In this document: piece by piece, positions 233 through 40,330 of the stretch
How the letters are laid out: the number at the start of each line of letters is the position of its first letter
Numbering within the stretch: the first letter of the stretch is position 1
Source of the DNA: Candidatus Iainarchaeum sp.
Lineage (GTDB): Archaea; Iainarchaeota; Iainarchaeia; Iainarchaeales; Iainarchaeaceae
Reading direction: 5' to 3'
Assembly: GCA_002687735.1 (NCBI GenBank)
Contig: NZBD01000015.1
Location: 1 to 54,498, forward strand
DNA: 54,498 bases
Made by a program: the position numbers and the translations under genes
Notes under the pieces: model-generated
Told to the model about the DNA's origin: nothing
Databases searched by the model: none
The model's input: the letters and a program-made list of their open reading frames with translations, nothing else

Positions 233-1447
233 ATGGTTGAAAACAAACAAAGACTGATTGATGCTACAAAGCGACTTATTCATACTGGAACCTCAGAAGA
301 GGAAGCTATGAAAAGTATGACTGATATAGGTATAAATGAAAAAGAAGCAAAGGATATTATGGAGCAAGCAAAAGCCGACCCAAAGCATTCAGAGAATAAA
401 GTTGCAGAAAAAACTGCAGAAAAAAAGCCTCCTAGTGATGGTTTTTGGGACTCGCATGACCCTTTGAGTAAAAGAGAAAATAAAAGTGAAAAAAAAGCAT
501 CTGCAGACAATTTAAGAGGTGATTTTTGGGATTCTTCAGGCAAAAGTTTTTTCACACCGACAAAAAATGAAAAACCCGAAAAGAAGCAAGGATTTTCTAT
601 ATTAGGAAAAGGAGACATTCCTGATTTTGAGGGAGCTGAAGCCTCACTTAAACCCAGAAGCCCTGGACATTATGATTACAAAAAAACAGAATTCAGGGAA
701 ACCGTTCCTGTACTGGTTAGCGATTTTGACAAACTGATTGACAAAGGCGGATTAAAAAGAGGAGATACAATCCTAATTTCGGGGGGAGCAGGAACCGGAA
801 AAACAACTTTTGGAATGCAGTTTATTTATGAAGGTGCCAAGCTGAGAAAGGAAAAAGGAGTTTACTTAACTTTAGAGGAAACATCTGAAAAAATTAAGGA
901 AAATATGATGGAAAATTTTGGGTGGGATCTTGATGCATTAGAAAAGGAAGGATTGCTTGCGATAATTAAAATTGATCCTTTGACAATTGCCAGGGCTGTT
1001 GAGGCAACCTTAACAAAAGAAAGGGGAGGCCTTTACATTGAGTTTGAGAAGTTTGATTTGCCTTTCCAGTTTGATCTTCCTTTTAAGCCGGAAAGGGTTG
1101 TGGTTGATTCATTGTCTGCTTTATCAATTGCTTTTGTTGACAACCACCAAGGGTATAGGCAGTACTTGAGGCATTTGTTTGAAACTCTGGAAGGTTATGG
1201 TTCTGTAAATTTAGTTTTTGGCGAAACAGAACAACTGCCGAATGTTTACTCGCGGTTAGGTATTGAGGAATTCCTTGCGGATGCAGTTGTTGTTTTTTAT
1301 AATATTAAAATCCATAACAACAGAGAAACTGCTTTGGAAATTTTAAAATTAAGAAGCAGTGCGCATGCAAAAAAATTAGTGCCGTATAAAATTACGCCCC
1401 GCGGCTTTGAAATTTACATTGATCAGGAAATATTCAGGGAAGACTAA
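233..1447 (+). CDS. KaiC-family RecA-like ATPase with N-terminal UBA-like helical domain
   Basis: Walker A SGGAGTGKTTFGMQFIYEGA, KaiC-typical GVYLTLEE and Walker B VVVDSLSAL. Confidence 0.9.
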   Translation: MVENKQRLIDATKRLIHTGTSEEEAMKSMTDIGINEKEAKDIMEQAKADPKHSENKVAEKTAEKKPPSDGFWDSHDPLSKRENKSEKKASADNLRGDFWDSSGKSFFTPTKNEKPEKKQGFSILGKGDIPDFEGAEASLKPRSPGHYDYKKTEFRETVPVLVSDFDKLIDKGGLKRGDTILISGGAGTGKTTFGMQFIYEGAKLRKEKGVYLTLEETSEKIKENMMENFGWDLDALEKEGLLAIIKIDPLTIARAVEATLTKERGGLYIEFEKFDLPFQFDLPFKPERVVVDSLSALSIAFVDNHQGYRQYLRHLFETLEGYGSVNLVFGETEQLPNVYSRLGIEEFLADAVVVFYNIKIHNNRETALEILKLRSSAHAKKLVPYKITPRGFEIYIDQEIFRED

Positions 1448-1491
1448 GAAAAACAAAAGAAATAAATACTATTTTTCTTATATAACACAAT

Positions 1492-1704
1492 ATGAACTTT
1501 GATTACATTAAACCGAACATTTCAAGCATTTCAATTTCTTTAATACTCGTAATTATTGTTCATTTTGCTTCAAAAATTTTTGTTTGTGCTCCCGGCCCTT
1601 GCTTAGCCAATAGCATCTATAATAATTATCTTGTTTATGCTTTAGTATTTGTAATAATATATCTGATTATTAATTTGATTCAAATACGCAGAAAAAAAAA
1701 TTAA
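1492..1704 (+). CDS. Small two-TM hypothetical membrane protein
   Basis: ORF with two hydrophobic segments. Confidence 0.5.
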   Translation: MNFDYIKPNISSISISLILVIIVHFASKIFVCAPGPCLANSIYNNYLVYALVFVIIYLIINLIQIRRKKN

Positions 1705-1706
1705 AT

Positions 1707-2147
1707 TTATATATTTTCCATCTGGTTGGAAAGCTGTCTTACTTTGCTTATTCTGGTTTTGACGTTTTCCAGTTTCTTTCTCATTCTTCCTCGTTTAAGG
1801 GTTAATGAGTTTTCAACGGAACTAAGTTTTCTCAGCTGGTCTTTTAACTGAACTTCCTTGTTTTGAGTGGAAGTAATATCTCCAACAACCTCATCCAAGG
1901 TTCCTTCTACATCAGCTTTGGCTTCCCTAAGCTGATTGAGTTCCCTAGCAATATCCTTTAATGCTTCTCTTAAAACAGAATGATGCTCCTCATATCTTCC
2001 TGAAGCTTTTCTTACAGGTTTTTTAGCTGTTTTCCTTTTTGTTCTTCGGGTTGTTTTTTTCTTTCTAGCCGGCTTTTTTGCCCTTGCTTTTTTTACTGGC
2101 TTCTTGGCTCTTCGTACTGTTTTTTTCTTTTTAGGCATTAGATCCAT
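1707..2147 (-). CDS. Coiled-coil protein with highly basic Lys/Arg/Ala-rich N-terminal tail
   Basis: MPKKKKTVRRAKKPVKKARAKKPARKKKTTRRTKRKTAKK tail followed by heptad-like helix. Confidence 0.7.
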   Translation of the reverse strand: MDLMPKKKKTVRRAKKPVKKARAKKPARKKKTTRRTKRKTAKKPVRKASGRYEEHHSVLREALKDIARELNQLREAKADVEGTLDEVVGDITSTQNKEVQLKDQLRKLSSVENSLTLKRGRMRKKLENVKTRISKVRQLSNQMENI

Positions 2148-2197
2148 CTCAAAATTGTTCTAAAATATAAACTCTTTTTCCTTTTTAAACGTTTCTT

Positions 2198-4519
2198 TTA
2201 CGCTTTCAGCAATTTTTCCAACCTTGATTTTCCTTTTGTGTAGGATTCTTTACTTATTACTCCTGAATCATAAGCTTCATTCAATGCGTCAAGCTTTTTT
2301 TCGAACGAATTCATCTGAGCAGCATGCTTCAAACGCTTCGCTTCCCGCTTTATCCTTCTCTTGCCTTTTGTGTACTTATTTTTTGAAATAATTCCTTTTT
2401 TATAAGCTTTTGTTAAAACTCCTGTTTTGTTGTCAAGATTCTGAACTAATTTTTTGGTCATAACATTTTCAGGGTTGATTTTACTGACGTCTGTTTTATA
2501 GAAGTCGTTCATCATATGCTCTAAATCAATTTGTTTTTTGAAAATAGAAAGTTTCTCCTTGAGCGTTCTTTTTTCATCTTTTGATTTTTTCTCACGCATC
2601 TTTTTTGAAAGCCTTTCTTCCAATGAACCGATTTTCTTCTCAAGTTTGCTTATTTGATTTACTAAACGATTATCAACCGGTTTTGCTTTTTTCATTTCAA
2701 TCTTTTCTGAAAGGCTTTTTACTTTTACTTGTAAACTTGAAAGGTTTTCTATTTTGGTTATTTTTTCATTCAGTGCCTTCAGTGCTTTTTGAATTTCTTT
2801 ATTGGCTTGCTCGTCTTCACTTTTAATTTTCTTTTTCTGGGTTGAATCTATCTTTTTCTCTAATCGAGAAATTTCATTAATCAGGCTTTTATCAATTGTT
2901 TTTTCCGGTTTTTTTTCAAGTTTTTTGGAAATTCCCTTAACCTGTTCCTGAAGGTTTTTCAACTCGTCGATTTTGCTTATTTTACCTTTCAATTCATTAA
3001 GGGATTTTGTAACTTCCTTTGTGTTCTGCATTTCTTGAAGCCTTTGTTTAAGTCCGTCCATTTCTCTGGTAACTATTTTGTTCTGTTCATTCTGAACGCT
3101 TAAACCATTCCGGGAAAGTTTTGGAACAGAAAGTGTTTTTTTAATCTGCGTTGGCTGCAGCCTCATTGAAGACTGCTGATCCGGAAAACCCATTTCCCCA
3201 AGTTCAAATTCGGTTAAAGTATTAACGTGATCAACAAACATTCCAAGATCCTTTATTGATTCGCTCTTATAATCCCCTTCAAGAGCAGTGAAAAACGCAT
3301 CGATTCCCGATGCTTTTATTTTTCCGATTAGAGAATGGATAAATTTTGTTACTGTTGATTCTTTTTCATAAATCAAAAGCGTCGAAAGTGAATCAAAAAG
3401 CAGAGCATCTGCATTCTGAGTGTTCAAAGCCTGAGTGATTCCGAGGCTTAGCTCTATTAATGAATTAGGGCTGCTTACAAAAATAGTGTTTTTTTCCTTT
3501 GTTGTACTTTTATCAGAGGTAAGAGTTACTGCATCAACAAAAAAGAATTTTTCAGGTTTTAAATTAAGACTTTTTAAGTGCTGCATTAAACTTTTATAAA
3601 CCTCATTCAGGTTCACATAAATAATTTTTTTGTAAGAAGCCCCTGCTTTTATCAGCAAAGTGGACATTCCGCGTATGTATTCTTTATTTGGGATTATAAG
3701 AATTGTTACTTCGGAGGTTTTAATCTTTTTTATTGCTTTTTCCTGGGTCATTTCTTTTACTGCAGTTTCAATATTTTTTCCTTTTTCTACCTTTTTTTCC
3801 AAAACATCAAGCCCGCTGGAAAATGAAAAACTTGTAAGACCTTTAGGCGGGTTTGTCTTTTTTTCGAGTTTTTTTATTTCAGAATTAAGCACGGTTTCCT
3901 TTTTCGGCTCATCTTTATTAACTTCTTTCTTTTGAGCAGGTTCTTTTTTTACAGGGGATTTAACAATGGGTTTTTTATCTTGCTTTTTCGGCTGGTTTTT
4001 CTCAAGAGGGGAATCAGCGATTATTTCTTTCACTTTTACTTTTCCGCCTTTTTTGAGTTTTGGAATAAATGTTTTTTTCATTTTTGGGGAGATTTCTCTT
4101 TTACCCAAAAAACCTGAAAATAAACTTTTTTTTCCTGTTTTCGGCTCTTTTTCAAGTTCTTTTGTTTGTTCTTCAACCTGTTTAAACAAATTATCTTTCT
4201 CTGGAGAATCTTTCTTAAGAGGGATTTTGATTTTCTGTTTAGGAATTTTTCTCAGGAGATCTTGTTTTGATTCTACTTTTAACCCAGGGATTGGTTTTTT
4301 TATGAGCTCCGTTTTCTTTTGAGGCACTGATTTTGGCTCAGGTTTAGGGTTTGTTTTTGATGCTGTTGCTTCCTTAACCAGTGCAAGAGCCTCTTGTTTA
4401 GTTACTCCAAATTCCCCTAATGAGTCTAATATTTCTTTTTCCGGGGTTTTACTTTCGAGCAGCTTTTTTGTCGCAACTAAAATAGCTTGTTTTCTTTTAG
4501 CATCCATTTTCAAAACCAA
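2198..4519 (-). CDS. Pseudo-KaiC (RecA-fold without Walker A) plus long coiled coils and C-terminal SHOCT-like repeats
   Basis: N-terminal domain similar to the 233..1447 protein; core TILIIPNKEYIRGMSTLLIKAGA...ADALLFDSLSTLL lacks a GxxGxGKT motif; C-terminal repeats YKKGIISKNKYTKGKRR / YDSGVISKESYTKGKSR. Confidence 0.75.
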   Translation of the reverse strand: MVLKMDAKRKQAILVATKKLLESKTPEKEILDSLGEFGVTKQEALALVKEATASKTNPKPEPKSVPQKKTELIKKPIPGLKVESKQDLLRKIPKQKIKIPLKKDSPEKDNLFKQVEEQTKELEKEPKTGKKSLFSGFLGKREISPKMKKTFIPKLKKGGKVKVKEIIADSPLEKNQPKKQDKKPIVKSPVKKEPAQKKEVNKDEPKKETVLNSEIKKLEKKTNPPKGLTSFSFSSGLDVLEKKVEKGKNIETAVKEMTQEKAIKKIKTSEVTILIIPNKEYIRGMSTLLIKAGASYKKIIYVNLNEVYKSLMQHLKSLNLKPEKFFFVDAVTLTSDKSTTKEKNTIFVSSPNSLIELSLGITQALNTQNADALLFDSLSTLLIYEKESTVTKFIHSLIGKIKASGIDAFFTALEGDYKSESIKDLGMFVDHVNTLTEFELGEMGFPDQQSSMRLQPTQIKKTLSVPKLSRNGLSVQNEQNKIVTREMDGLKQRLQEMQNTKEVTKSLNELKGKISKIDELKNLQEQVKGISKKLEKKPEKTIDKSLINEISRLEKKIDSTQKKKIKSEDEQANKEIQKALKALNEKITKIENLSSLQVKVKSLSEKIEMKKAKPVDNRLVNQISKLEKKIGSLEERLSKKMREKKSKDEKRTLKEKLSIFKKQIDLEHMMNDFYKTDVSKINPENVMTKKLVQNLDNKTGVLTKAYKKGIISKNKYTKGKRRIKREAKRLKHAAQMNSFEKKLDALNEAYDSGVISKESYTKGKSRLEKLLKA

Positions 4520-4543
4520 TTGTTTTTCATTGTTTAAAATACT

Positions 4544-5764
4544 TTATTTTTCCTGTCGAATCTTATGCTCCATCTGTTTTATTTTCTCATCGAGTTCTAT
4601 TAATTTTGACTTGTATGTTGCCATGTTACTTTTGTAGCTTTTTGCCGGCATCACTGCTTTTTCAAAATACTCTCGCTGTAAATCCTTAATGAGTTCTGTT
4701 GTTTTTGCTTTTTCGTTTTTAAGTTTTAATAATTGCACCGAATAATTTATTTTAGTGTAAAATAATTTCGAAACAACTCCTAAAACAAGAACAACCACCA
4801 ATACAATTAACCCATAATTCTTTACCATACAGGTTGCTGAGCAGGTTACTATTAGTTCTATCTTGTGTTCTGATTCATTTCCGGCATTATCCTTCAGATA
4901 AATCCGATAAATTTGGTTTCCTGTTTCTTTTGGGGCATAAGCCAGAATAAGCTCTCCGTTAGAATTTATTTCAAAAGGGATTTTTTCCTGACCAACTCTT
5001 AGTTCAGCCACTTCAATATTTGTCTGTGTAAGACTTACTCCGTTTGAATATGTTACTTTCGCTTTTATTGGTATTTTGTCACTTTGTTCATATGTTTGGT
5101 TTACCGGCTCTATAATCTGAAAAATAAATGATGCAGGAAGGATTTCAATTTCCAAAAGTCTTTCCCCCCCATAAAGTTTACCATCATCTTCTTTTTGTGC
5201 AACAACAGTTAAACCCCATTTTTCTTCAGGAGCATTAAAAGGAACGCCGTAATTCACATCATAAATTCCGTTGCCCTCTGCTTTGAGGTATATTTTTCTT
5301 CCAAACACATCATACATTACAACCTGTGCATCATTCACAATTTCCCCCGAATCTGTCATTTCAATACTTATGAAAATTGTTTCTCCCCTTTTGAAAGCTA
5401 CTCCTGCAGGACTCAGAAAAGTTATTCTGTAAAATGCTGACTCAGGAATTGGTTTTACTATTACAATTATTTCTGTTTCATTTTCAGGAGTAAAAAGTTT
5501 TATTCTCCAGTTGCCACTTGGATCTAAAAAACTGGTTGGGTATTTGAAATCAAACTTTCCATCACTAAAACAATTAATTTGTTCATCAAAAATTTTTTTA
5601 TTGCCAAGCTCTGCACTTATTCTGTGCATATCCCCTAAATCACAGGAACCGGAAAGGATTATTTCACTTCCTTTTTCATAATTAGTCTGCCCAGATTTTA
5701 GGGTTAATGCGCTAGAAAAGCCAGCTAAAAATAAAACCGCCAAAATAATCATTATTTTTCTCAT
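4544..5764 (-). CDS. Secreted/membrane-anchored Ig-like surface protein with C-terminal TM and short cytoplasmic coiled tail
   Basis: Signal peptide, beta-rich ectodomain, C-terminal TM, LKLKNEKAKTTELIKDLQREYFEKAVMPAKSY tail; 4-nt overlap with upstream gene. Confidence 0.75.
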   Translation of the reverse strand: MRKIMIILAVLFLAGFSSALTLKSGQTNYEKGSEIILSGSCDLGDMHRISAELGNKKIFDEQINCFSDGKFDFKYPTSFLDPSGNWRIKLFTPENETEIIVIVKPIPESAFYRITFLSPAGVAFKRGETIFISIEMTDSGEIVNDAQVVMYDVFGRKIYLKAEGNGIYDVNYGVPFNAPEEKWGLTVVAQKEDDGKLYGGERLLEIEILPASFIFQIIEPVNQTYEQSDKIPIKAKVTYSNGVSLTQTNIEVAELRVGQEKIPFEINSNGELILAYAPKETGNQIYRIYLKDNAGNESEHKIELIVTCSATCMVKNYGLIVLVVVLVLGVVSKLFYTKINYSVQLLKLKNEKAKTTELIKDLQREYFEKAVMPAKSYKSNMATYKSKLIELDEKIKQMEHKIRQEK

Positions 5765-8223
5765 TTTTTTCCACCTTTCTTTTTCTTAATAGTCTGTAGT
5801 TCTTGCTCATATTTAAGCATTAATCCGTCATACTTAGACCTGGAAAGCAGCCCTGACTTGAAATAACGTTCCTGTATATTTATTATATTAGCCTTGATTT
5901 TTTTCTCTTTATTTTTTAACAATTCGGCTTTCTTATCAGATTTATAGTTCCTAATAACTAAAATTAAACCTATTAATATTGCTAAACCAACCACTAAAAT
6001 AATTAACCCGTATTCAGAAAAATAATAATTCAAAGAATAACCAGAAACACTTGCATTAAAAACCGCAGAACCGCTGTTCCCAAAATTATCCTGGGCATTT
6101 ATTGAAACATTAATTTCTTTTTCGTTTTCAACAACGTATTTTGCAACAAAAGAACCGTTATTTTTTTCTGTTTCAACCTTAACCCCATTGATCGTAACAG
6201 TCAGATCTGCTATTTCTGCATCAGCCCCGCTTTCAAATAGAACTTTAAATTCAAAATCTATTTGTTCCCCGATTGGGAAAAATTTTTTAGTCGGCTTTAT
6301 AATGTTCACAAAAAGATTCTCGGTTTTTACTTCCGATTCAAGAATTTTTTTGCCGATTAAGTCATTTACTTCCGCAATTATAATAACTCTTAGTGAGTTT
6401 CCACTAAAATTAGTTGGAAGATTATATTTCAAACTGTAAGAACCATCGTTTTCAGAAGTGAATTTTATTTCCTCACTTCCGATAAATGCTTTTACCACTG
6501 CAGTATCAGCTAAATCTTCTTCTTCCTTTACATTAACAGAAATGTTGATCTGTTCTCCTCTGGAATATTGTGTGTTTATGCCTTTTACAATTTCTATTTC
6601 TACTTGAGACAAAGATTCCGGATTCATGAATATTACACTTTTTTCTGCACGAGCAATATTTTCGGAATCGTCTTCAGCAACTATTCTTATAACCCATGTT
6701 CCTGTTGGATCTAAGGAAAGTGATTTATAAGAATAATTAAAATTTCCAAATTCATTAAGTTCCTGTTTAGTTTCAAAAATAATTTGACCGTCGTTTTCTG
6801 CGGTTATTGTTACTTCTGCATCTACTGGCGAAGATTTTTTGGAAACAGTTCCTGTTATTTCCAGTGAATCGGTAACAATGAATTCTTCCTGGTTAGTGTT
6901 CAGAATAGTTTCCAGCAAAGGAATTACATTCAGCTGCAAATATTTTTTTTGTGAACCAACACTGATTTCTATTGATTCAATCCCTTCTTCAGCAGGGGCT
7001 GTGAAACTGTTCCCGTATATTCCGTCATTAGGATTTTTGTCATTATGTTTTCCATCATCAAATAATTTAACGATTCCGAAAAATCCAGTGGCGGTTACAT
7101 TTTTTCCTGTACCTGCATTAACAAGGATATTGAATTCTTCTTCTAAGTTTAGATAATCCCCAAACTTTGGTTCAATAATTTCTATTGTATTTCCTGAACA
7201 GTCCTCGCTGCATGTTTCTCCTTGTTCACAAAAATCATTACCGCAACAATTTAATGAAACTGAAACTGTGCAGTTTGTTCCGACACATTCGTTTATTGTG
7301 CAAGATTCCTGGATTATTGTTCCTTCAAAGGGTTCGTTTACACAAGATGCAAAGCAGGTGTCAGCATACTGACAAATATCTTTAGTTTTTGGATTAGTAT
7401 CATTACAATCAGAATTTACAGAACAAAGAGGATTACAAATTATAGAACTGCATTCCGCTAGACAAGTGCCTGAATTTTTACAAACATCTATTGTGAGAGG
7501 GTTTTCATCAGCACAATCAAGGCCATTAATACAGGATGGTTCACATGCACTATAAGAACAAGAAGCGGAACATGCTCCAGGATTATTGCAAATGTCCCGG
7601 GTAAAAGGATCGTTATCATTACATGACAATCCATCTGTACATGCAATCGCTGTAAAATCACACTGATTCAGGAAAAGCAATGCAGTTGATGAAATTCCTA
7701 TTGCTTTGAAATTTTCACCTGACGGAGAGTTCCACTCGGATTTAGTTAATAAATCTCCTTCATCGAGAGTTATTTTTCCGTCTTCAGATTTTAAAACTAC
7801 TTTTAGCCTGCTTCCGGAAGCTAAAGTATATGCTTGTTCTAAATTGATCTCGGATTCATTTTTTCCTGACGCTATAGTTCCTGTTGTGATTAATTCATTT
7901 TTAATCGATTTAAAATTATACTCGTAAAGTTCCCAAGTAAGTGATTTTGATGCATCAATGTTATTTGCCCAGAAAGTTATGCTTGTATGAAGTTGTAATC
8001 CTCTTGGAAAAGAGCTTGTATACCACTTTCCTAAAATGCCTTCATCACCAGAATAAAAAACTGTTTTACTTGAGGATGCATTAGGAGGATTGGCAGTCAT
8101 AAAGTTACTTTGACTCCCTTCAAAAAGACTAGTGAAATCGTCTCCTCTTAACCAATAACCATTGCTTGCAGCTATTGAGACTGTAGAAAAAAGTATTATG
8201 AATAATATCCATGCAATTTTCAT
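5761..8223 (-). CDS. Large Cys-rich/Ig-like surface protein with C-terminal TM and cytoplasmic tail
   Basis: Signal peptide, C-x-D/N-rich Cys repeats, CGNDFCEQGETCSEDC, TM, IINIQERYFKSGLLSRSKYDGLM tail; 4-nt overlap with upstream gene. Confidence 0.75.
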   Translation of the reverse strand: MKIAWILFIILFSTVSIAASNGYWLRGDDFTSLFEGSQSNFMTANPPNASSSKTVFYSGDEGILGKWYTSSFPRGLQLHTSITFWANNIDASKSLTWELYEYNFKSIKNELITTGTIASGKNESEINLEQAYTLASGSRLKVVLKSEDGKITLDEGDLLTKSEWNSPSGENFKAIGISSTALLFLNQCDFTAIACTDGLSCNDNDPFTRDICNNPGACSASCSYSACEPSCINGLDCADENPLTIDVCKNSGTCLAECSSIICNPLCSVNSDCNDTNPKTKDICQYADTCFASCVNEPFEGTIIQESCTINECVGTNCTVSVSLNCCGNDFCEQGETCSEDCSGNTIEIIEPKFGDYLNLEEEFNILVNAGTGKNVTATGFFGIVKLFDDGKHNDKNPNDGIYGNSFTAPAEEGIESIEISVGSQKKYLQLNVIPLLETILNTNQEEFIVTDSLEITGTVSKKSSPVDAEVTITAENDGQIIFETKQELNEFGNFNYSYKSLSLDPTGTWVIRIVAEDDSENIARAEKSVIFMNPESLSQVEIEIVKGINTQYSRGEQINISVNVKEEEDLADTAVVKAFIGSEEIKFTSENDGSYSLKYNLPTNFSGNSLRVIIIAEVNDLIGKKILESEVKTENLFVNIIKPTKKFFPIGEQIDFEFKVLFESGADAEIADLTVTINGVKVETEKNNGSFVAKYVVENEKEINVSINAQDNFGNSGSAVFNASVSGYSLNYYFSEYGLIILVVGLAILIGLILVIRNYKSDKKAELLKNKEKKIKANIINIQERYFKSGLLSRSKYDGLMLKYEQELQTIKKKKGGKK

Positions 8224-11200
8224 TTTTTTACCTTCGAAGCCATTTGTTTTATGGTTTCTCTAATGTCCTGCAATTTTGTTTCATGTTTTTCCATCTGCAC
8301 ATCATAGACTTTCTTATCCATTGTTCCCTCGATAAAATACTGCGTCTGGATTCCTTTGACTGTTTCCAAAACCTGTTTCTCTTTATTTCGCAGAGCATTT
8401 ATCCCTAATCTTTTTTTGAGTAAACCATAACCAAAAACAACTGTGATAATTGCTGCAAATAAAAGCAAACCGATGCTTGTTCCGTAAATCCTTAAATAAT
8501 AAAGATAAGAAATTCCTGAAACATCAACTGAAATTTCTTCGGAAACCGTATTATCAAAACCGTCATCAAGACCAATTGTAACTGAAACCGTTCCTTCATC
8601 AGTTGTTTTCACTAAATAAATTCCTTCATAAACCCCATTCCCTATGCTTTTTAGTTCTATTATTTCGTTTCCAACAATACTGGAAATAGATTCCAGTACT
8701 AAAGGAGTGTCATCTTCATAAACAGCATAAATTTTGACTTTTATTTCTTCCCCTGCTAAGAAATTATCTCTTTTTGGCTCTAGTATTTCCAAATTTATTT
8801 TTGCATCATTAACAGTTATACTTGTTTCCACCGAACCTTGTTTGTTTTGTTTTTGTGCAACGACTTTTATATCCAAGTCACCGCTTTGGGTCTGATACGG
8901 GATTCTGAAAGAACCGACATATTCTGATGAATCGTTTTCTTCGAAAGAAAATTTCAAACCATTTGTCTGGCCTTCAACAATCGCATCTGAAACAATGTTG
9001 CCCTCAATGTTTTTTACTGTCACAGAAACCTCTGCTTCAAATCCTTTTTCGAAAATAGTATTGTTAGTGTCTACAATTTCAACAATCAAAAAATTGGTTG
9101 CTTCCGGACTTAACACAGTTATTGTTTTTTCAAAAACACCTACATTTCCGTTTTCATCAGTTGCTTTAATAGTAACAATATAATCTCCTGATTCATTAAT
9201 CAAAGTTGTCCTGTAATTAGAAGAAAAATTCCCGTTAGCGGAATTAAGATCCTGATTCAGGAGAATTTCTCTGTTAAAAGACAGATTCAAATCAAGAGGG
9301 AGGTTCATGTGCTTATCCTTAAGGGTTAATTTTCCTCCGATATTTATGTTATCTCCAAGGACAAAAAATTCTTTATCAAAATCAACCGAAAAACTGAGTT
9401 TTGGAACAATATTAATGAACGCTGTTTTTTCACTTTTAACTCCTCCAAGCTCAACAATAAAAGTCACAGGATAAAGATTTTCTTCAATCGCAGTGTCAAT
9501 AGTGATAAAGTTTGCGTAAATATTGTCGTTTCTTGTTCCTTCATCATGTTTACCATCATTCAGGAGCGGCACAGTTCCAAAAAACCCAATTGCTTTTACA
9601 CCAGCATCACTAACTTTTTCTCCATCAACAAGTAAAGTAACTTTTAATTGAACAGTTTCTCCTCTAACATAGAAAGTATCAGCAAAGGAAGCATCAATTT
9701 CAATATTCTGCGGAACACAATCTGCTGAACAGGTAAAATAATTCTCTCCTGATTCACACCGGTCATTTCCGCAAACTCCGAGTTTTATTGTTGTTTTACA
9801 TGAATTTCCAATACATGCTAATTCATAAATATCAGAAATACTCTCCCCACAAACACCACAATCAGCAGGAGCAGAACATTCTGTTTCTCCGACATCACAA
9901 ACACCATTGCCGACATCAGGAAGATTTTTACATATAGATGAGCACCTTCCTGCACCTGCACAAACATCTGTTGTTTCTGAATTACCATCATCACAATCAG
10001 AATCAGAAGAACAAACAGGATTACAAGAATTATATACACACCCCGCATCACACAAACCCGCATTAGCGCAAAAGTCTGTTGTTAATGTGTCCCCGTCATC
10101 ACAAGCATCATTGCTAGAACACGCAATATTACACTGGCTATTTTCACAATAAGAAGAAATTGTTCCGGGATTCACACAGGTGTCGGTTGTTATATTGCTG
10201 TTGTCATTACAAACAGAATTAGAACTGCAAATTATTTCTTCGTCAGTATCAACAGGATCAGGATCAACAGGATCAGGATCAACAGGATCAGGATCAACAT
10301 TAACATCAACATAGCTGCATGCTGCTGAACAGGTTCCTGGGTTTAAACAAGAATCTGTTGTACTTGAATTAGTATCGTCACAAACAGAAGCATCATTACA
10401 TGCTATTGTACAGGGAGTATTTGAACAGGAGGAACTTTCGGTTCCTGGGTTTAAACAAGAATCTGTGGTCAAACTATTTGTATCATCACAATCAGAATTA
10501 GAGGAACAGGTTATTTCAACACCAGAATCTATATTCTGGCATGCAGAGTTACAACCACCAGCATTGCTGCAAGTATCAATTGTTGAACTCTCAGAATCAT
10601 CACATGAATTATTTGAGTCACATACAACAGAACAACTTCCCGTGGTGTTCAGCAATAATAATGCTGTACTCAAAGCCTGATTAATAGTATACTGGATTCC
10701 GTTAGAAGATGAATAAACAACTGTTTGAGAATCAGACCCTTCGTCCATTATAGCTTGTAAAGTCCCTCCTCCGTTTGCATTATAATCAACAACTAATTTT
10801 GCATAATTCCCTACAGGTATAGTATAGGATGGTATATTGGCAAATGTTTCATGCGAAGACTCTAATGTTGGCAAAACATACCAATCTGACTGAATAATTT
10901 CTGTTTCTGAATAATCATCCATATTAACATCGTAAATTGTCCATCGATAAGTTCCAGTATCATTAGTTATTCCAATATTTGAAAAATATAAAAATGCTGG
11001 ACCGCTTAATACAAAAGATTGCTCTGTGTAAAATCCGATAGGGTCGGCAGTATACCATGTTCTTAATTCGTGGATTCCGGCTTCAGTGGTAATGTTAATT
11101 GTTTCTTTTACTGAATTAGATGTTGGCGAAACAACACTCATTGCATTAAATGTATTAGAATCGATTGTTACTTGGGAAGAAGAGCCCCTAAGATATATTA

Positions 11201-11279
11201 TTTCGTTTGCCCCAAAAACATTTGGAATAAAAAGAATAAATCCTAAAATAATTGCTAATACTAACCATTTTGAGTGCAT
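8220..11279 (-). CDS. Large Cys-rich/Ig-like surface protein with DPDPV repeat, C-terminal TM and cytoplasmic tail
   Basis: Signal peptide, repeated CDDTNSxTTDSCLNPGTC motifs, TM, TVKGIQTQYFIEGTMDKKVYDVQM tail. Confidence 0.78.
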   Translation of the reverse strand: MHSKWLVLAIILGFILFIPNVFGANEIIYLRGSSSQVTIDSNTFNAMSVVSPTSNSVKETINITTEAGIHELRTWYTADPIGFYTEQSFVLSGPAFLYFSNIGITNDTGTYRWTIYDVNMDDYSETEIIQSDWYVLPTLESSHETFANIPSYTIPVGNYAKLVVDYNANGGGTLQAIMDEGSDSQTVVYSSSNGIQYTINQALSTALLLLNTTGSCSVVCDSNNSCDDSESSTIDTCSNAGGCNSACQNIDSGVEITCSSNSDCDDTNSLTTDSCLNPGTESSSCSNTPCTIACNDASVCDDTNSSTTDSCLNPGTCSAACSYVDVNVDPDPVDPDPVDPDPVDTDEEIICSSNSVCNDNSNITTDTCVNPGTISSYCENSQCNIACSSNDACDDGDTLTTDFCANAGLCDAGCVYNSCNPVCSSDSDCDDGNSETTDVCAGAGRCSSICKNLPDVGNGVCDVGETECSAPADCGVCGESISDIYELACIGNSCKTTIKLGVCGNDRCESGENYFTCSADCVPQNIEIDASFADTFYVRGETVQLKVTLLVDGEKVSDAGVKAIGFFGTVPLLNDGKHDEGTRNDNIYANFITIDTAIEENLYPVTFIVELGGVKSEKTAFINIVPKLSFSVDFDKEFFVLGDNINIGGKLTLKDKHMNLPLDLNLSFNREILLNQDLNSANGNFSSNYRTTLINESGDYIVTIKATDENGNVGVFEKTITVLSPEATNFLIVEIVDTNNTIFEKGFEAEVSVTVKNIEGNIVSDAIVEGQTNGLKFSFEENDSSEYVGSFRIPYQTQSGDLDIKVVAQKQNKQGSVETSITVNDAKINLEILEPKRDNFLAGEEIKVKIYAVYEDDTPLVLESISSIVGNEIIELKSIGNGVYEGIYLVKTTDEGTVSVTIGLDDGFDNTVSEEISVDVSGISYLYYLRIYGTSIGLLLFAAIITVVFGYGLLKKRLGINALRNKEKQVLETVKGIQTQYFIEGTMDKKVYDVQMEKHETKLQDIRETIKQMASKVKK
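10251..10295. repeat. Three perfect 15-bp tandem copies (aacaggatcaggatc) encoding DPDPV
   Basis: Direct reading of sequence. Confidence 0.95.
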
Positions 11280-14414: not shown

Positions 14415-14512
14415 GGGTGTTTTAAGACCTTATCTTTAAATATAAGCACTTTCTATATTAATACAACTTTTTAGGGCATATGCCAAAAATAAAAAGGAGG
14501 AGTGAGAAAAAC

Positions 14513-14977
14513 ATGTTTTTCAAAGAACAAAAAGGACAGTCCGCTTTGGAATACTTGATGACTTACGGCTGGGCATTAATTGTTATATTAATAGTTATTG
14601 TTGCAGTAATAGTGTTTTGGATTCAACCTTCACAGGTTGGCGGAAACACTTGTTCAACCACATCAGGAATCCTGGTAACAAACCATCAACTTTCGGCAAC
14701 AAGCGACGATTTGAGTTTGATTCTTTCAAACCAGACCGCTGCGTCATTGACAAATGTTGATATCAATGTAACAGGAACAATAGGCGGAGTATCAATAACA
14801 GACTCAAATACTCTAGCAACACTTGGAACAATACAACAAACAGCAGTTGTTGATATAACAGATAATAAAGATGTTGCTACCGGTGAAACCTACTCGTTGC
14901 AGGTTACATTCAACTACAGAGACGCATTGGCAAGAACTGTTACATCAACATGTAACACAACGGGAACAGTAGCATAA
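14513..14977 (+). CDS. Type IV pilin-like protein with class III signal peptide
   Basis: KGQSALEYLMTYGWALIVILIVIVAVIVFW; Shine-Dalgarno-like aaaggagg upstream of ATG 14513. Confidence 0.85.
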   Translation: MFFKEQKGQSALEYLMTYGWALIVILIVIVAVIVFWIQPSQVGGNTCSTTSGILVTNHQLSATSDDLSLILSNQTAASLTNVDINVTGTIGGVSITDSNTLATLGTIQQTAVVDITDNKDVATGETYSLQVTFNYRDALARTVTSTCNTTGTVA

Positions 14978-14992
14978 AATTAATTGTTTGAA

Positions 14993-15030
14993 GATTGGGA
15001 CTTTGGTTCCAATCCAATTCTCTTTTTTTT
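14993..15030 (+). terminator. Hairpin plus T8 terminator downstream of pilin
   Basis: GATTGGGAC-TTTG-GTTCCAATC 9-bp stem (one G-U), T8 run at 15023..15030. Confidence 0.6.
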
Positions 15031-15066
15031 AGAAACTTTAAATACTACTTTGACTATTTATAAAAT

Positions 15067-15510
15067 ATGAATAAGTGGCTGAAAATACTTCTTATAGTTG
15101 CTGCAATTATTGTAGTGCTTTTTATTTTACTTCCAATAATCATTGTTATGATTGCTTCATTAGTATTCTTGATTAATCCTTCAGAAATAGGGGCAACTGG
15201 TTGCACAGGATTTCAGCAATTACCAATTGGAAATTTTCAAATTTCCAATGATAGTTTAACAATAAAAATTACTAACCAAACAGGAAGAAACATGAGTACT
15301 GTTGATATTCAAGGAAGCTTTGACGGAGAAGAATATATAAGTTCTAAAGAATATTCTGGAACAGAAACAATAAATGCCAATTCTGAAGCATACGCAAGTT
15401 GGAGCGGTCAACAATTAGAGCCTGGAAATCATACAATAGATTTAATTATTTCCTACAATAATGGAGATTTTATAAAAACAGCAACTGGATCATGCAGAGG
15501 ACAAACTTAA
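15067..15510 (+). CDS. Membrane-anchored protein with pilin-like ectodomain but no class III signal
   Basis: N-terminal TM; ectodomain pattern (two Cys, LTIKITNQTGRNMSTVDI...SYNNGDFIKTATGSC) parallels the preceding pilin. Confidence 0.6.
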   Translation: MNKWLKILLIVAAIIVVLFILLPIIIVMIASLVFLINPSEIGATGCTGFQQLPIGNFQISNDSLTIKITNQTGRNMSTVDIQGSFDGEEYISSKEYSGTETINANSEAYASWSGQQLEPGNHTIDLIISYNNGDFIKTATGSCRGQT

Positions 15511-15517
15511 ACTAATT

Positions 15518-16516
15518 TTAAATCAGGTTTCCGAAGAAGCTTGTTAATAGGAAACGTGCTGAAAAGAAAACAATCAGTGCAACAATGGTCAGCGGAATAA
15601 TGTACTTCACACCATTAATTTCTTTTCCTGCATTTATAACCCCTATTGTGAGAGAAGAAAATAATGTTGTAAACACCAGCATCACAATAGAAAACATTAC
15701 AATAAAATCAGGATCTAATGTGGCTCCGTCTCCAGAAGCAAAACCTGATATAGGCCCTAAAGAGCCTGACTGAATACTAGCAGGATCAATACTCGGAACT
15801 GCTGAAATCTGGCTGGATAAAACCTGCACAATGAATGAACTTACTCCAAACAACATAGGCGCACCCATAACTGCTGAAAAAAGGATTAAGAGAACATAAA
15901 TTGAAATATTGGATTTTATCTCATCTTCCAATGCAATCTGTTCTTTCAGATCATCACTTAACTGGAATAGTAAATCTGCAATCTGACCTCCGCTTCTTAT
16001 TCCCTGAGATATTAACCAAAGAGTTTTGTCAAGTATTTTTGAACTTATACCAATACTGATCATTCTCAAAGCATTCTCGGTTCTTTCTCCGGAAGCAATT
16101 CTTTTTGAAGCATTTTTCAGCTCTAATTGTAAAGGCCCAAACTCCGGTCTGCCGGCAACAAATAATGCTCTTTCTGTTGTTAAACCGCTTTTCATGTTTG
16201 ATGCAACAAGTCTCAATGCATCAGGGAGAATACTCTCAACAAATTTCCCTTTTGACTCTGAACCCATTTTCATTAAGAGATATGCAATTCCTACAAATCC
16301 AAAAAATGATACTGAAAAAGCAATTATTGGATTGAATTCAAAAAATACAAAAACGTTAGCTGCTACACCAACTCCAAGAAAAAAACCGTACAGAAACAGG
16401 AAACCAACAAACTTGTTAGCATTCATTTCAATGCCATTATAGATTAGCTGCCTCTGGAATTCCTGTCTTATTGAATTAGGGATAAATGCTGAAACTCTAG
16501 TATACACTTTAATCAC
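15518..16516 (-). CDS. Type II/IV secretion system F family protein (TadC/FlaJ-like)
   Basis: LRLVASNMKSGLTTERALFVAGRPEFGPL, multiple TM. Confidence 0.82.
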   Translation of the reverse strand: MIKVYTRVSAFIPNSIRQEFQRQLIYNGIEMNANKFVGFLFLYGFFLGVGVAANVFVFFEFNPIIAFSVSFFGFVGIAYLLMKMGSESKGKFVESILPDALRLVASNMKSGLTTERALFVAGRPEFGPLQLELKNASKRIASGERTENALRMISIGISSKILDKTLWLISQGIRSGGQIADLLFQLSDDLKEQIALEDEIKSNISIYVLLILFSAVMGAPMLFGVSSFIVQVLSSQISAVPSIDPASIQSGSLGPISGFASGDGATLDPDFIVMFSIVMLVFTTLFSSLTIGVINAGKEINGVKYIIPLTIVALIVFFSARFLLTSFFGNLI

Positions 16517-17303
16517 CCAACAACGTTGGTCTTGATGATTTTATTATCCCCAGGAACATGAACTGACCAATAGCAATAAACACAAGCATACCCCAAAAAA
16601 CCTCTTCACCAATCTCAATCTGCGGGAATACCGATAGAATTATCAAAAAAGTAAGGCCAAGCGAAGGAATTATTGCTCCAAGCATCATGTAAAGAAGAGA
16701 AAGTAATTTTAGGGAATTACCATATTTTCTAACTTGATTGCTTTTTTCTTTTGAAAGATCATCGACCAGAGACTGCATTATTTGGCTCACATCTGAACCT
16801 GCTTTCAGACCATTAACTAACTGCCAGATTGTTCTTCTGAAATAAATTGACGGATTATTTTCACCCATTTCTTCAAGAGCAATTTCCTGAAACTTCCCTG
16901 TTTCAATTTTTTCAACTGCTTTTTTGAATTCTACACTTACTTGCCCATTGTCTCCTTCAGCAACAATATTAATCGCGTCAAAAAGAGTTACTCCTGATTT
17001 TATTTCCACAAGAATAGTTCTTAATGCAAAAACAAGATTTCTTTCAATACTTCTTACTTTTTTTTTCAGAATAATTTTCGGGTAAAAGAGTAACTGCACA
17101 GCAACCAATGAACCAAACAAAAAACCAAGCAATGGAGGCATAGTAAGCATCTGTTCAGGGGCAAGCCTTGAAACAAAAACTGCCGCAATAAGGGTTCCAA
17201 AAGCAAAATATAACACAAACATCAGAGCAATTATTGCTCCGTAAGTTTCTCTGCTAAAATCCATTTCAGCCTGTTGTAATTCAGTTTTTAGAAAAGGAAA
17301 CAT
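16509..17303 (-). CDS. Type II/IV secretion system F family protein (TadB/FlaJ-like)
   Basis: LVFALRTILVEIKSGVTLFDAINIVAEG, multiple TM; overlaps 15518..16516. Confidence 0.82.
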   Translation of the reverse strand: MFPFLKTELQQAEMDFSRETYGAIIALMFVLYFAFGTLIAAVFVSRLAPEQMLTMPPLLGFLFGSLVAVQLLFYPKIILKKKVRSIERNLVFALRTILVEIKSGVTLFDAINIVAEGDNGQVSVEFKKAVEKIETGKFQEIALEEMGENNPSIYFRRTIWQLVNGLKAGSDVSQIMQSLVDDLSKEKSNQVRKYGNSLKLLSLLYMMLGAIIPSLGLTFLIILSVFPQIEIGEEVFWGMLVFIAIGQFMFLGIIKSSRPTLLGD

Positions 17304-17353
17304 CTGACTTATTGTGCTTCCAATTCCTCTGAAATTGTTAGCTAATCCTAGAA

Positions 17354-17752
17354 TTATTTTTGAAGGAAGCTGGCTGAAAGTTTTATTCTTCCTGATTGTA
17401 TAGGGAGCGTTGTGGGGGTAAGGTTAACTTTTGTATAATCAAACACCTGAGTATTGTCAGTGAAAGCAATAGTTGCACTTTTCCCGGTTAGTGAAAAAGA
17501 CTGTACTTCACTAGGAATATCAACCTCAAAAACAATAGTGCTTCCTTCACCAAAAGAAGCAACCAGATCGGCAGTGTTTGTAATTTCAGAAACTGATTTA
17601 GAAGCTTTTACAATTTGGGCGTTCTGGTTAAAAGAAAAAAAAGCAAACCCGACGAGAATTCCCACGATCAGCAACACAAAACCGGTTATAACCAAATATT
17701 CTAAAGCAACCTGCCCCCTTTGAATTGATTTTGTTTGTTTATTTTTCTGCAT
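17354..17752 (-). CDS. Type IV pilin-like protein with class III signal peptide
   Basis: QRGQVALEYLVITGFVLLIVGILVGFAFF; start reassigned from 17806 to MQKNKQT. Confidence 0.8.
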   Translation of the reverse strand: MQKNKQTKSIQRGQVALEYLVITGFVLLIVGILVGFAFFSFNQNAQIVKASKSVSEITNTADLVASFGEGSTIVFEVDIPSEVQSFSLTGKSATIAFTDNTQVFDYTKVNLTPTTLPIQSGRIKLSASFLQK

Positions 17753-17893
17753 GAATAAAACCAATAATAACAACACGTGTTCGATATAAAAATTTAGCGA
17801 AAACATAGCTAAAATCAGGAAAAACCGTCTTTTTAGCGTTTTTTTAGGTTTTAGAAAGATTTTTAGAGGTTTTCAAGCAAATTATGTATAGTT

Positions 17894-34444: not shown

Positions 34445-35344
34445 ATGCATTCAATCTCAGTTTCCTTAATTAGGAATTTACAGGAATCTAGACGAAAAGC
34501 AATTTCTTACAAAGCTATCGCGAAAGAGTTTAATTTAAGCCCCGCTACTGTTTTGAAATATTGTAGAAAAGTTGAGCTGAAAGGTTCGGGGAAACGAATT
34601 CTTGAAATAAATGAACAGGTTAACAGAGAAAAATTTGCTGAAGTATATGCTAAGGTTAAGAAAATAAGGAAACCTTTATTTTCCAAAAAATTTTCAAATC
34701 TACTAGGGCATTTGTTTTTTGACGGCTCAGTTAATTTTACACTAGGAAGATATGATTTAACTTATACAAATGCGTCTCAAAAGTTGGTTCATACGTTTAA
34801 CAAAAATATGATTGAATCTTTTGATTTGAAGTCTGGAAAAATATCTAAAATTTCTGGAGTGAATTTTGATTGGTTTGTTTGTCATCATTATTCTAAATCT
34901 GTTTGTGAATTTTTATCAGAGTTATCCGAATCATTTAGTACTTCTGATGGTATTGGTGTCCCCACGCAAATTTTGGAAGGAGATAATGGAATTAAAGCCG
35001 CTTTTTTGGGTGCTTTTTGGGATGATGAAGGAAGCATTTCTGATTCTGGTAAGCTTGAAGGTAGCTTGGTTTCAAAAGAAATGATTGTTGGGCTTTCAAA
35101 ATTGCATTTTGATTTAGGGATTGAAAACAAGGTTTATACAAATAAGAAGAAGGGAGATTTCACTGTTCATATTAACAAAAACGAAGTGAATTACTTGTTG
35201 TTTCAAGAAAAAATCGGGTTTTCTGATTCATTAGTAGTTCATGGAAAAAATAGTGGGAACTTGAAAAAGAACGTGTTGCGTGAAAAAATTAGGGGTTATA
35301 GAAACCATTTAAAACTCTCCCAAACTAACTATTTACGATTGTAG
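34445..35344 (+). CDS. LAGLIDADG-family homing endonuclease-like protein with N-terminal HTH
   Basis: Two LAGLIDADG-like motifs LLGHLFFDGSVN and FLGAFWDDEGSI; HTH-like YKAIAKEFNLSPATVLKYCRK. Confidence 0.75.
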   Translation: MHSISVSLIRNLQESRRKAISYKAIAKEFNLSPATVLKYCRKVELKGSGKRILEINEQVNREKFAEVYAKVKKIRKPLFSKKFSNLLGHLFFDGSVNFTLGRYDLTYTNASQKLVHTFNKNMIESFDLKSGKISKISGVNFDWFVCHHYSKSVCEFLSELSESFSTSDGIGVPTQILEGDNGIKAAFLGAFWDDEGSISDSGKLEGSLVSKEMIVGLSKLHFDLGIENKVYTNKKKGDFTVHINKNEVNYLLFQEKIGFSDSLVVHGKNSGNLKKNVLREKIRGYRNHLKLSQTNYLRL

Positions 35345-35455
35345 GGGTCGTAGCTCAGTCTGGGAGAGCACGGGGCTGAAGGGAATTTTAATTGCTGATT
35401 TGTAATTTTATTCTCAGTTACCTCGGTGTCGCGGGTTCAAATCCCGCCGACCCCA
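35344..35455 (+). tRNA. tRNA-Phe (GAA) with 38-nt intron at canonical position 37/38 (35382..35419)
   Basis: GGGGTCG/CGACCCC acceptor; CGGGG/CCTCG anticodon stem; BHB: AGG bulge, CUGA/UCAG 4-bp helix, UUA bulge, GAAU/AUUC inner helix. Confidence 0.88.
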
Positions 35456-38545: not shown

Positions 38546-39587
38546 AAAATTTCTAAAAGAATCTGCTAAGGATATTGATAAAGAACTGGAAAACTTCTTT
38601 CCTAAAAAAATCACCGCTGAATGGGTTACCGAATCGTTAGGGGAACCAGAATTTAGTTTTGATGAAAATTCTTCACAGAAAGCAGTTGTTGATCCGGTTT
38701 GGGATTTTTTAGACCGGGGCGGAAAACGATGGAGACCTGCTTTGATGCTGCTTGCATGTGAGGCGGTTGGCGGAAATAAAAAAGATGCCATGCCTTTTAC
38801 GGTTATTCCTGAACTTGTTCATAACGGAACAATAATGGTTGATGATGTGGAGGATAATTCTTCTTTAAGGAGAGGTAAAAAATCAACACATCTCATTTAT
38901 GGCGTTGATATTGCAATAAATGCAGGAAATGCAATGTACTTTCTTCCATTAGTAACCTTAATTAATGATGCTAATATTTCCCCCGAACAAAAAGCAACTA
39001 TTTATGATTTGTATGCAAAAGAACTTCTGAAACTTTCTTTTGGGCAGGCAATGGATATTTACTGGCATAAGGGTCATTCTGAGGTAACGGAACAACAATA
39101 CTTGCAAATGACTTCTTACAAGACAGGTTCCTTATCAAGATTAGCTGTTGGTTTAGGAGTAATATTAGGAAAAGGATCAGAAAAACAAATTTCTGTTTTA
39201 TCTGATTTTGCAACCAGCTTAGGAGTGGCTTTTCAGATTCATGATGATGTTCTGAACCTTAAACCTGCTGAGGAGTGGGGTAAAGAAACTGGCGATGATA
39301 TTCAAGAAGGGAAAAGAACCATAATAGTTATTCATTCTTTTTCACTAATTGATTCTAATAAAAAGGATCAACTGACAAAGATTTTGGATGCTAAAGAAAA
39401 TACGGTTGCAGAAATAAAAGAAGCAATTTCTATTTTAGATGGATCCGGTTCTATTGATTATGCTAAAAAATTTGCAAAAGACATTGTTGCTGAAAGCTGG
39501 TCAAATCTTGACAAGGCTCTTGAGGATTCGGATGCAAAAAAAATGCTGAAAGAATTTGCAGATTATGCTATTAATAGGGAAATTTAA
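38535..39587 (+). CDS. Geranylgeranyl/polyprenyl diphosphate synthase
   Basis: MVDDVEDNSSLRRGKKSTH (DDxxD) and FQIHDDVLNL; start reassigned to 38535. Confidence 0.93.
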   Translation: MSLEKFLKESAKDIDKELENFFPKKITAEWVTESLGEPEFSFDENSSQKAVVDPVWDFLDRGGKRWRPALMLLACEAVGGNKKDAMPFTVIPELVHNGTIMVDDVEDNSSLRRGKKSTHLIYGVDIAINAGNAMYFLPLVTLINDANISPEQKATIYDLYAKELLKLSFGQAMDIYWHKGHSEVTEQQYLQMTSYKTGSLSRLAVGLGVILGKGSEKQISVLSDFATSLGVAFQIHDDVLNLKPAEEWGKETGDDIQEGKRTIIVIHSFSLIDSNKKDQLTKILDAKENTVAEIKEAISILDGSGSIDYAKKFAKDIVAESWSNLDKALEDSDAKKMLKEFADYAINREI

Positions 39588-40330
39588 ACATCATATTCTT
39601 TGTCTACTTTTTTGATGTTCATACCTTTAGAATCAATTTCTATTGGATGTAAATCTTCAGAATGCTTAGTTGCACGCATTTTTCTTATGTGAAGTGTTCT
39701 ATTGCTTCTTGTTCCTATTCCCATGTAGTGCAAGACTATTACTCCGTCAACAACATATTCTTCTATTCCGTATTTTCCGAATTTGTTTTCTCCTTCAGTT
39801 ACCTCTGAAGTTAACAGTGTTGTAACCCCTATTCTCATTAAAAGATAAGAGAGTTTCAGGATCGCGTTTCGGATTTCATTTTCGCTTTCATAATTCATGC
39901 CCATTGCAGGAATAGAGTCAATCACCAGTCTTTTTGCGCCTATTTTTTTTGTGGTGCGCATTATTTCAAGCAAAAGTTTGTCAATATCAAATCCTGTTGC
40001 CGGCATTGCAAATTCTTCTTCACTAGGAATTCCTATTTTTGCAAGGCTTCCATCAATAATCTGAATCATGTTGTCGTCTTCAAGTTTTCTCAAGTCCCAT
40101 CCGAACTTTTGCATATCCTGTCTTATAAGTTCGGGTCGTTCATCTAGTGTTACATAAATGCCCGGTTCCTTATATTTAGAAGCTCCTTCATAGAGATATT
40201 GAGCGCAGAAAATAGTTTTGCCTGTACCGCAAGCTCCTGACACTAACGTTGTTCGGCCTTCTGGAAAACCGCCTTCTATAAGCTTGTCTAATCCGTTTAT
40301 CCCTGTTTGGATTCTATTCATTTTGGCCAA
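39584..40330 (-). CDS. KaiC-family RecA-like ATPase (single domain)
   Basis: SGACGTGKTIFCAQYLYEGA, GIYVTLDERPELIRQDM, RLVIDSI. Confidence 0.93.
   Translation of the reverse strand: MAKMNRIQTGINGLDKLIEGGFPEGRTTLVSGACGTGKTIFCAQYLYEGASKYKEPGIYVTLDERPELIRQDMQKFGWDLRKLEDDNMIQIIDGSLAKIGIPSEEEFAMPATGFDIDKLLLEIMRTTKKIGAKRLVIDSIPAMGMNYESENEIRNAILKLSYLLMRIGVTTLLTSEVTEGENKFGKYGIEEYVVDGVIVLHYMGIGTRSNRTLHIRKMRATKHSEDLHPIEIDSKGMNIKKVDKEYDV

Follow-up and report, generated by a model that had tools for sequence, protein, structure and literature searches.

KaiC homologues are abundant in archaea, and to our knowledge their inputs are largely unknown. One KaiC-like ATPase, ArlH (also known as FlaH), is part of the archaellum base. 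Archaeal KaiC-like ATPases have been proposed to act as hubs of signal transduction (Makarova, Galperin and Koonin 2017, mBio, as cited in PMC5847659 and PMC6393860). KaiC ATPases are also found beside archaeal type IV pilus loci, in most of which no second component is known (Makarova, Koonin and Albers 2016, PMC4858521). Here we describe a KaiC locus at the left end of contig NZBD01000015.1 from Candidatus Iainarchaeum sp. (the whole contig, 54,498 nucleotides, is referred to as the window), in which three surface proteins with a common cytoplasmic tail are encoded near an intact KaiC and a degenerate KaiC relative. The contig (C15; G, C and L are used below for genomes, contigs and loci) is part of a 552-kb archaeal genome that is 63% complete, and the relatives of the window with named records are labelled Candidatus Diapherotrites.

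The KaiC gene (233-1447, plus strand) is followed by a convergent minus-strand block that encodes a small Lys-rich coiled-coil protein, a 773-residue protein referred to as the pseudo-KaiC and the three surface proteins; adjacent surface-protein frames overlap by 4 bases. The open reading frame coordinates of an initial annotation of this sequence are correct, and the peptides that it quoted are present letter for letter. That annotation proposed a coupling of the surface proteins to the pseudo-KaiC through a shared hairpin; across genomes, the consistent partner of the tail is the intact KaiC, not the pseudo-KaiC. The KaiC and the surface proteins comprise the following features:

233..1447, plus strand: intact KaiC-family ATPase of 404 residues, tail-linked subfamily (Pfam KaiC 1.9e-49; tail-linked clade with a Shimodaira-Hasegawa-like approximate likelihood ratio test (SH-aLRT) support of 100)
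about 233-382, plus strand: N-terminal three-helix domain of this KaiC, followed by a disordered linker and one KaiC domain
4544..5764, minus strand: surface protein 3, 406 residues, with signal peptide, three β-sandwich domains, transmembrane helix and hairpin tail (AlphaFold2 predicted local distance difference test score (pLDDT) 90.3; orthologues in alignment A1)
4547..4723, minus strand: cytoplasmic tail of surface protein 3, a helix continuing the transmembrane segment, an EKAVMP turn and a second helix (E 2.2e-22 to the tail profile)
5761..8223, minus strand: surface protein 2, 820 residues, with Cys-rich repeats, immunoglobulin/macroglobulin-like domains, a choice_anch_X domain (NCBIfam, 4e-9), transmembrane helix and tail
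5764..5919, minus strand: cytoplasmic tail of surface protein 2 (tail profile search)
8220..11279, minus strand: surface protein 1, 1019 residues, paralogue of surface protein 2 by pairwise comparison, with transmembrane helix and tail
8223..8393, minus strand: cytoplasmic tail of surface protein 1 (tail profile search)

Each surface protein has a signal peptide, one C-proximal transmembrane helix and a tail. The proteins are paralogues along their full length (1e-91 between surface proteins 1 and 2, 7e-30 between 2 and 3, and 2e-23 between 1 and 3), so the tail that they have in common partly reflects common descent. In alignments of orthologues the tail is the most conserved portion of each protein, with a mean pairwise identity of 58% in the tail versus 36% in the ectodomain for surface protein 3, and 45% versus 26% for surface protein 2; the three tail families align with one another at 96-99% probability (hhalign). 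The AlphaFold2 model of surface protein 3 (24 relatives, pLDDT 90) consists of three β-sandwich domains and a transmembrane helix that runs into the cytoplasm, and its helices 310-368 (from the transmembrane segment onward) and 374-405, with the EKAVMP turn between them, form a helical hairpin. As modelled, the tail is a real cytoplasmic domain, a helical hairpin continuous with the membrane helix, and the alignments and the predicted hairpin bear out the earlier idea of membrane proteins sharing such a tail. The turn motif noted at that time is present in the tails with a different spacing, Y-F-x2-G/A-x6-Y (YFxxGx6Y), where five intervening residues had been given. A structure search with the model returned generic β-sandwich matches only (complement/macroglobulin and immunoglobulin proteins), with a TM-score of about 0.2.

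Two other identities for the tail were considered and rejected. SHOCT (PF09851) gave no match in the three surface proteins at E ≤ 10 and was not among the matches listed (25 families) for 50 tails. The tail profile matches only the three surface proteins in their own genome and likewise gives three matches in the near-complete genome G020; because matches are so few in each genome and the neighbouring KaiCs come from one clade only, the tail is not a generic coiled-coil artefact.

The link between tail and KaiC emerges from related genomes. Profile A4, built solely from window-type tails, found more tailed proteins in the window's order, and these adjoin KaiC genes that had already been matched by a search with the window KaiC. 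The further loci are operons of a large tailed surface protein, a tailed surface protein of about 400 residues and a KaiC, without a pseudo-KaiC; most tail and KaiC operons have no long pseudo-KaiC and do not lie beside pilus genes. When all 75 genomes of the order (Diapherotrites-type) were scanned with tail profile A6 and KaiC profile A7, one KaiC subfamily was set apart by score, with 48 members at E ≤ 2e-82 and the next KaiC at 1.5e-55. A tail is encoded within 6 kb of 46 of these 48 KaiCs versus none of the 102 others, and within 500 bp of 28 of them; the two untailed members are both at contig ends, and of the 30 nearest tails located within 1 kb, 29 share the strand of the KaiC. As the KaiC profile was built from neighbours of tails, circularity was checked with genomes that had not contributed to the profiles, where 20 of 21 subfamily KaiCs are tail-linked, and with the second phylum and the tree described below. 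Beyond this order, 12 genomes of the class were scanned and gave no tail. One record labelled Micrarchaeota (L160, Modern_marine.mb.22) has tail matches at the same contig numbers and coordinates as genome G032 of the window's order; it appears to be that genome, and its label may be wrong.

The window KaiC is a member of the KaiC family (PF06745, 168.6 bits, cut-off 26.6) with the Walker A sequence GGAGTGKT. Its one KaiC domain, where circadian KaiC has two, together with a score of 101 bits to TIGR02655 (cut-off 546), places it outside the circadian KaiC family. The window also encodes another KaiC paralogue (39584-40330, about 162 bits to A7); this one falls outside the tail-linked clade and is not flanked by a gene for a tailed protein.

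In a second archaeal phylum, the tail profile matches 47 of 156 genomes, and the tails mostly occur in a giant surface protein with two tandem copies and a partner of about 300 residues with one. Here a tail lies within 6 kb of 24 of the 35 subfamily KaiCs versus 0 of 115 other KaiCs. Giant and partner are fused as one three-tailed protein in L190, L194, L196, L202, L203 and L205, which supports the two proteins acting together. A pseudo-KaiC stands beside a tailed protein in L196, L200, L201, L203 and L205; in four of them, L196, L200, L203 and L205, histidine kinases or response regulators are encoded as well. The giant tailed proteins are not confined to this phylum: frames of up to about 4,200 residues occur in L199, L204, L098 and L091 (the last two from the window's order), in genomes of around 1 Mb. 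Tails are present in 9 of 301 genomes of a third phylum, with an adjacent subfamily KaiC in 7 of the 13 tail loci examined.

Two ectodomain families, referred to as A and B, carry the tail. No sequence relation between them is detectable except for two matches that are marginal and biased (L204 in the second phylum and L217 in the third). In a tree of 95 KaiCs, all 44 tail-linked members fall in one clade (SH-aLRT 100), whose two branches, type A (97) and type B (99), agree with the ectodomain type. This agreement holds across phyla: L091 and L098, from the window's order, are type B in both ectodomain and KaiC, and in L218, from the third phylum, surface protein and KaiC are both type A. A tail domain of predicted single-pass topology is therefore genetically linked to one KaiC subfamily over three phyla and on two unrelated ectodomains.

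The pseudo-KaiC of the window contains coiled coil, an N-terminal helical domain, a RecA/KaiC-like core and two C-terminal hairpin repeats:

2198..4519, minus strand: pseudo-KaiC/coiled-coil protein, 773 residues (DUF7504 7.3e-9, KaiC 3.6e-6; AlphaFold2 model; PDB fold match PH0284, 8.5e-6)
4361..4501, minus strand: N-terminal three-helix domain, a homologue of the domain that begins the intact KaiC of 233..1447 (hhalign 98.5%; helices 7-22, 27-36 and 41-53)
3197..3712, minus strand: RecA/KaiC-like core, in which the phosphate-binding loop reads PNKEYIRGM (model and fold match)
2333..2440, minus strand: C-terminal hairpin repeat 1, LTKAYKKGIISKNKYTKGKRR (hairpin profile 8e-18; helical in the AlphaFold2 model)
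2201..2311, minus strand: C-terminal hairpin repeat 2, LNEAYDSGVISKESYTKGKSR, SHOCT-like (SHOCT E 0.0017)

The protein belongs to DUF7504 (36.8 bits, cut-off 27), and Walker A is absent from it and from 5 orthologues. Its core has the KaiC/RecA fold, with PH0284 (2dr3) as the best Foldseek match and FlaH (4yds) as a further fold neighbour, and its N-terminal domain is of the same family as that of the intact KaiC, as the initial annotation had recognised. Repeat 2 scores 18.5 bits to the SHOCT profile, under the Pfam cut-off of 27. A 463-residue protein encoded between two tailed surface genes in L095 (7273-8664) ends in a SHOCT-like hairpin (hairpin profile E 1.5e-7) and has no match to the pseudo-KaiC core.

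The block also contains the small coiled-coil gene, and a set of conserved pilus neighbours lies beyond it:

1707..2147, minus strand: small Lys-rich coiled-coil protein, 146 residues (orthologues at the same position in L033, L034, L035 and L040)
14480..17806, mixed strands: type IV pilus genes, conserved neighbours (same linkage in L034, L035, L039 and L045)
14480-14977, plus strand: prepilin-like gene in this neighbourhood
15518-16516, minus strand: first TadC/T2SSF gene (Pfam T2SSF matches of the two genes, 8e-15 and 3e-16)
16509-17303, minus strand: second TadC/T2SSF gene
17354-17806, minus strand: class III signal peptide protein (Pfam Class_IIIsignal 8e-4)

The block is kept in nine relatives (L033, L034, L035/L036, L037, L038, L039, L041, L044 and L040/L097, the last divided between contigs), so that the expected co-occurrence of tailed surface proteins, KaiC and pseudo-KaiC in related genomes is borne out. 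Its order there is pilus genes (ATPase, two TadC, prepilin), CoaD/CoaE, phosphomannomutase, tailed surface proteins, pseudo-KaiC, coiled coil and KaiC, after which comes a second pair of KaiC and pseudo-KaiC. In the window's own genome this pair is on contig C17 (L043, G000:C17, 5464-6789), beside genes for a 425-residue coiled-coil protein and for DHH-type and PEP-utilising-type proteins; since the pair directly follows the window-type KaiC in L033, L034 and L036-L039, C17 is probably located close to the left end of the window's contig in the real genome. Elsewhere in the window, Rfam predicts a 112-base tRNA at 35344-35455 and ARAGORN none; this may be a tRNA gene with an intron.

We favour, with moderate confidence, a reading in which the tailed proteins are surface receptors that cross the membrane once and, through the hairpin tail, address a KaiC dedicated to them; the window locus would be a pilus-associated version with an added pseudo-KaiC. 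Docking of the tail on this KaiC, or regulation of it, is the parsimonious explanation because tail and KaiC stay partners whatever the ectodomain. The three surface proteins would be receptors or adhesins, and the roughly 45-residue inner tail, with its YFxxG turn in a hairpin continuing the transmembrane helix, would be the contact site for the KaiC subfamily. When the ectodomains are engaged outside, the tails would pack or cluster differently; a KaiC ring at the inner membrane may in response change its ATP-bound, assembly or phosphorylation state and would relay the signal onward; in the window locus, the catalytically dead KaiC relative may act as adaptor or output, probably towards the pilus. 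The physical contact, the direction of the signal and the pilus as output are what we infer. The second-phylum loci that combine pseudo-KaiC and tailed protein with histidine kinases or response regulators count in support, and the position of the window's KaiC at the side of a pilus locus fits the published association (PMC4858521).

Several observations weigh against this reading. The window KaiC is convergent to the surface genes and hence not co-transcribed with them, and about 50 of the 130 tails in the order are more than 6 kb from a subfamily KaiC, some of these being at the end of a contig or in the outer part of the same locus. In the second phylum, 8 of the 35 subfamily KaiCs have no tail within 12 kb, and among these cases are 3 genomes without any tail at E ≤ 1e-4. 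The KaiC of L113 (566-1345) falls inside the tail-linked clade and no tail was found in its genome; it is labelled Euryarchaeota (LacPavin), and its contig stops just upstream of the gene. The proposed contact is drawn from gene linkage, and operon linkage could instead reflect co-regulation or a function in assembly.

The assembly function is the main rival, although an unlikely one: KaiC would be an assembly or export ATPase that binds the tails for sorting, oligomerisation or surface display, without a signal. The operon layout of two surface proteins and a KaiC and the giant partner proteins agree with it, as do the pilus genes beside the window locus, the KaiC-like ArlH of the archaellum base and the fold similarity of the pseudo-KaiC to FlaH (4yds). 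However, the pseudo-KaiC, histidine kinase and response regulator neighbours in the four second-phylum loci indicate signalling, and most tail and KaiC operons are away from pilus genes. It is improbable that the tail is a mere membrane-proximal coiled coil for oligomerisation and KaiC a linked regulator of operon expression; the tail is helical, and KaiC family proteins do regulate haloarchaeal gas vesicle expression (PMC4858521), but two ectodomain families that are unrelated have kept one tail, the KaiC subfamily that accompanies it is always the same, and type B proteins carry tandem copies of it.

We give an equally small chance to the model of the initial annotation, in which a SHOCT-like hairpin common to the tails and the pseudo-KaiC C-terminus tethers the surface proteins to a scaffold. 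The genes are adjacent, the turn motifs are similar, a SHOCT-like protein is encoded between the tailed genes of L095, and the pseudo-KaiC hairpins align with the tail of surface protein 2 at 68.6% (hhalign) and with the enlarged 50-tail profile at 67.5%. The same comparison yields 4.8% for surface protein 3, 0.7% for surface protein 1 and 18.8% for second-phylum tails, so that homology of the hairpins is rejected for surface proteins 1 and 3 and weak for surface protein 2. No pseudo-KaiC was among the matches listed in tail-profile searches of 40 genomes, the orthologous pseudo-KaiCs of G033, G039, G011 and G012 have no hairpin whereas the tails are kept at their loci, and most tail operons have no hairpin-bearing pseudo-KaiC. 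Since the profile-profile test failed, the coupling through a common hairpin is unsupported; to judge from sequence comparison, the pseudo-KaiC hairpin is a SHOCT-like motif different from the tail hairpin.

On the receptor reading, one KaiC clade has a transmembrane partner of its own. The tail that marks this partner is short and portable and lends itself to expression and direct binding tests. The near-constant adjacency of tail and KaiC branch in tiny uncultured archaea of at least three phyla suggests a widespread route by which outside signals reach KaiC switches. More tentatively, and at somewhat less than even confidence, these loci may represent a family of archaeal transmembrane signalling proteins not described before, in which the ectodomains are interchangeable and a universal hairpin tail docks on KaiC rings. 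The family would extend over at least three phyla of archaea with small genomes and might serve to sense host or surface contact and to control pili. If true, archaea would have a receptor class of their own, distinct from histidine kinases, and small symbiont-like archaea a candidate contact-sensing pathway.

Among known elements, SHOCT resembles the hairpins described here as a short C-terminal helical hairpin to which the last pseudo-KaiC repeat scores near, and differs in that this score is under the Pfam cut-off and SHOCT is not among the matches listed for the tails. ArlH/FlaH is likewise a KaiC-like ATPase at a membrane machine and a fold neighbour of the pseudo-KaiC core, whereas the window KaiC, at 22.7 bits, is far under the ArlH cut-off of 215 bits and no archaellum genes are seen here. 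In agreement with the initial annotation, no description of this tail and KaiC membrane-protein set was found in the literature searched, a comparison that covered sources other than the gene tables of the 2017 hub study. Novelty is limited by the existing hub proposal, which, as represented in the papers citing it, links intact KaiC and inactivated homologues to input and output proteins, including two-component parts; genetic linkage to dedicated input or output proteins is found here as well. The inputs of the hubs, so far as those papers describe them, are predicted domains in general, whereas here a specific family of putative transmembrane receptors, with one conserved tail, is tied to one KaiC clade. 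The type IV pilus loci with KaiC (PMC4858521) share with the window a KaiC beside pilus ATPase, TadC and pilin genes; in contrast to these, the tail and KaiC link described here is also found away from pilus genes, and the tailed surface proteins and the pseudo-KaiC are concrete candidate partners.

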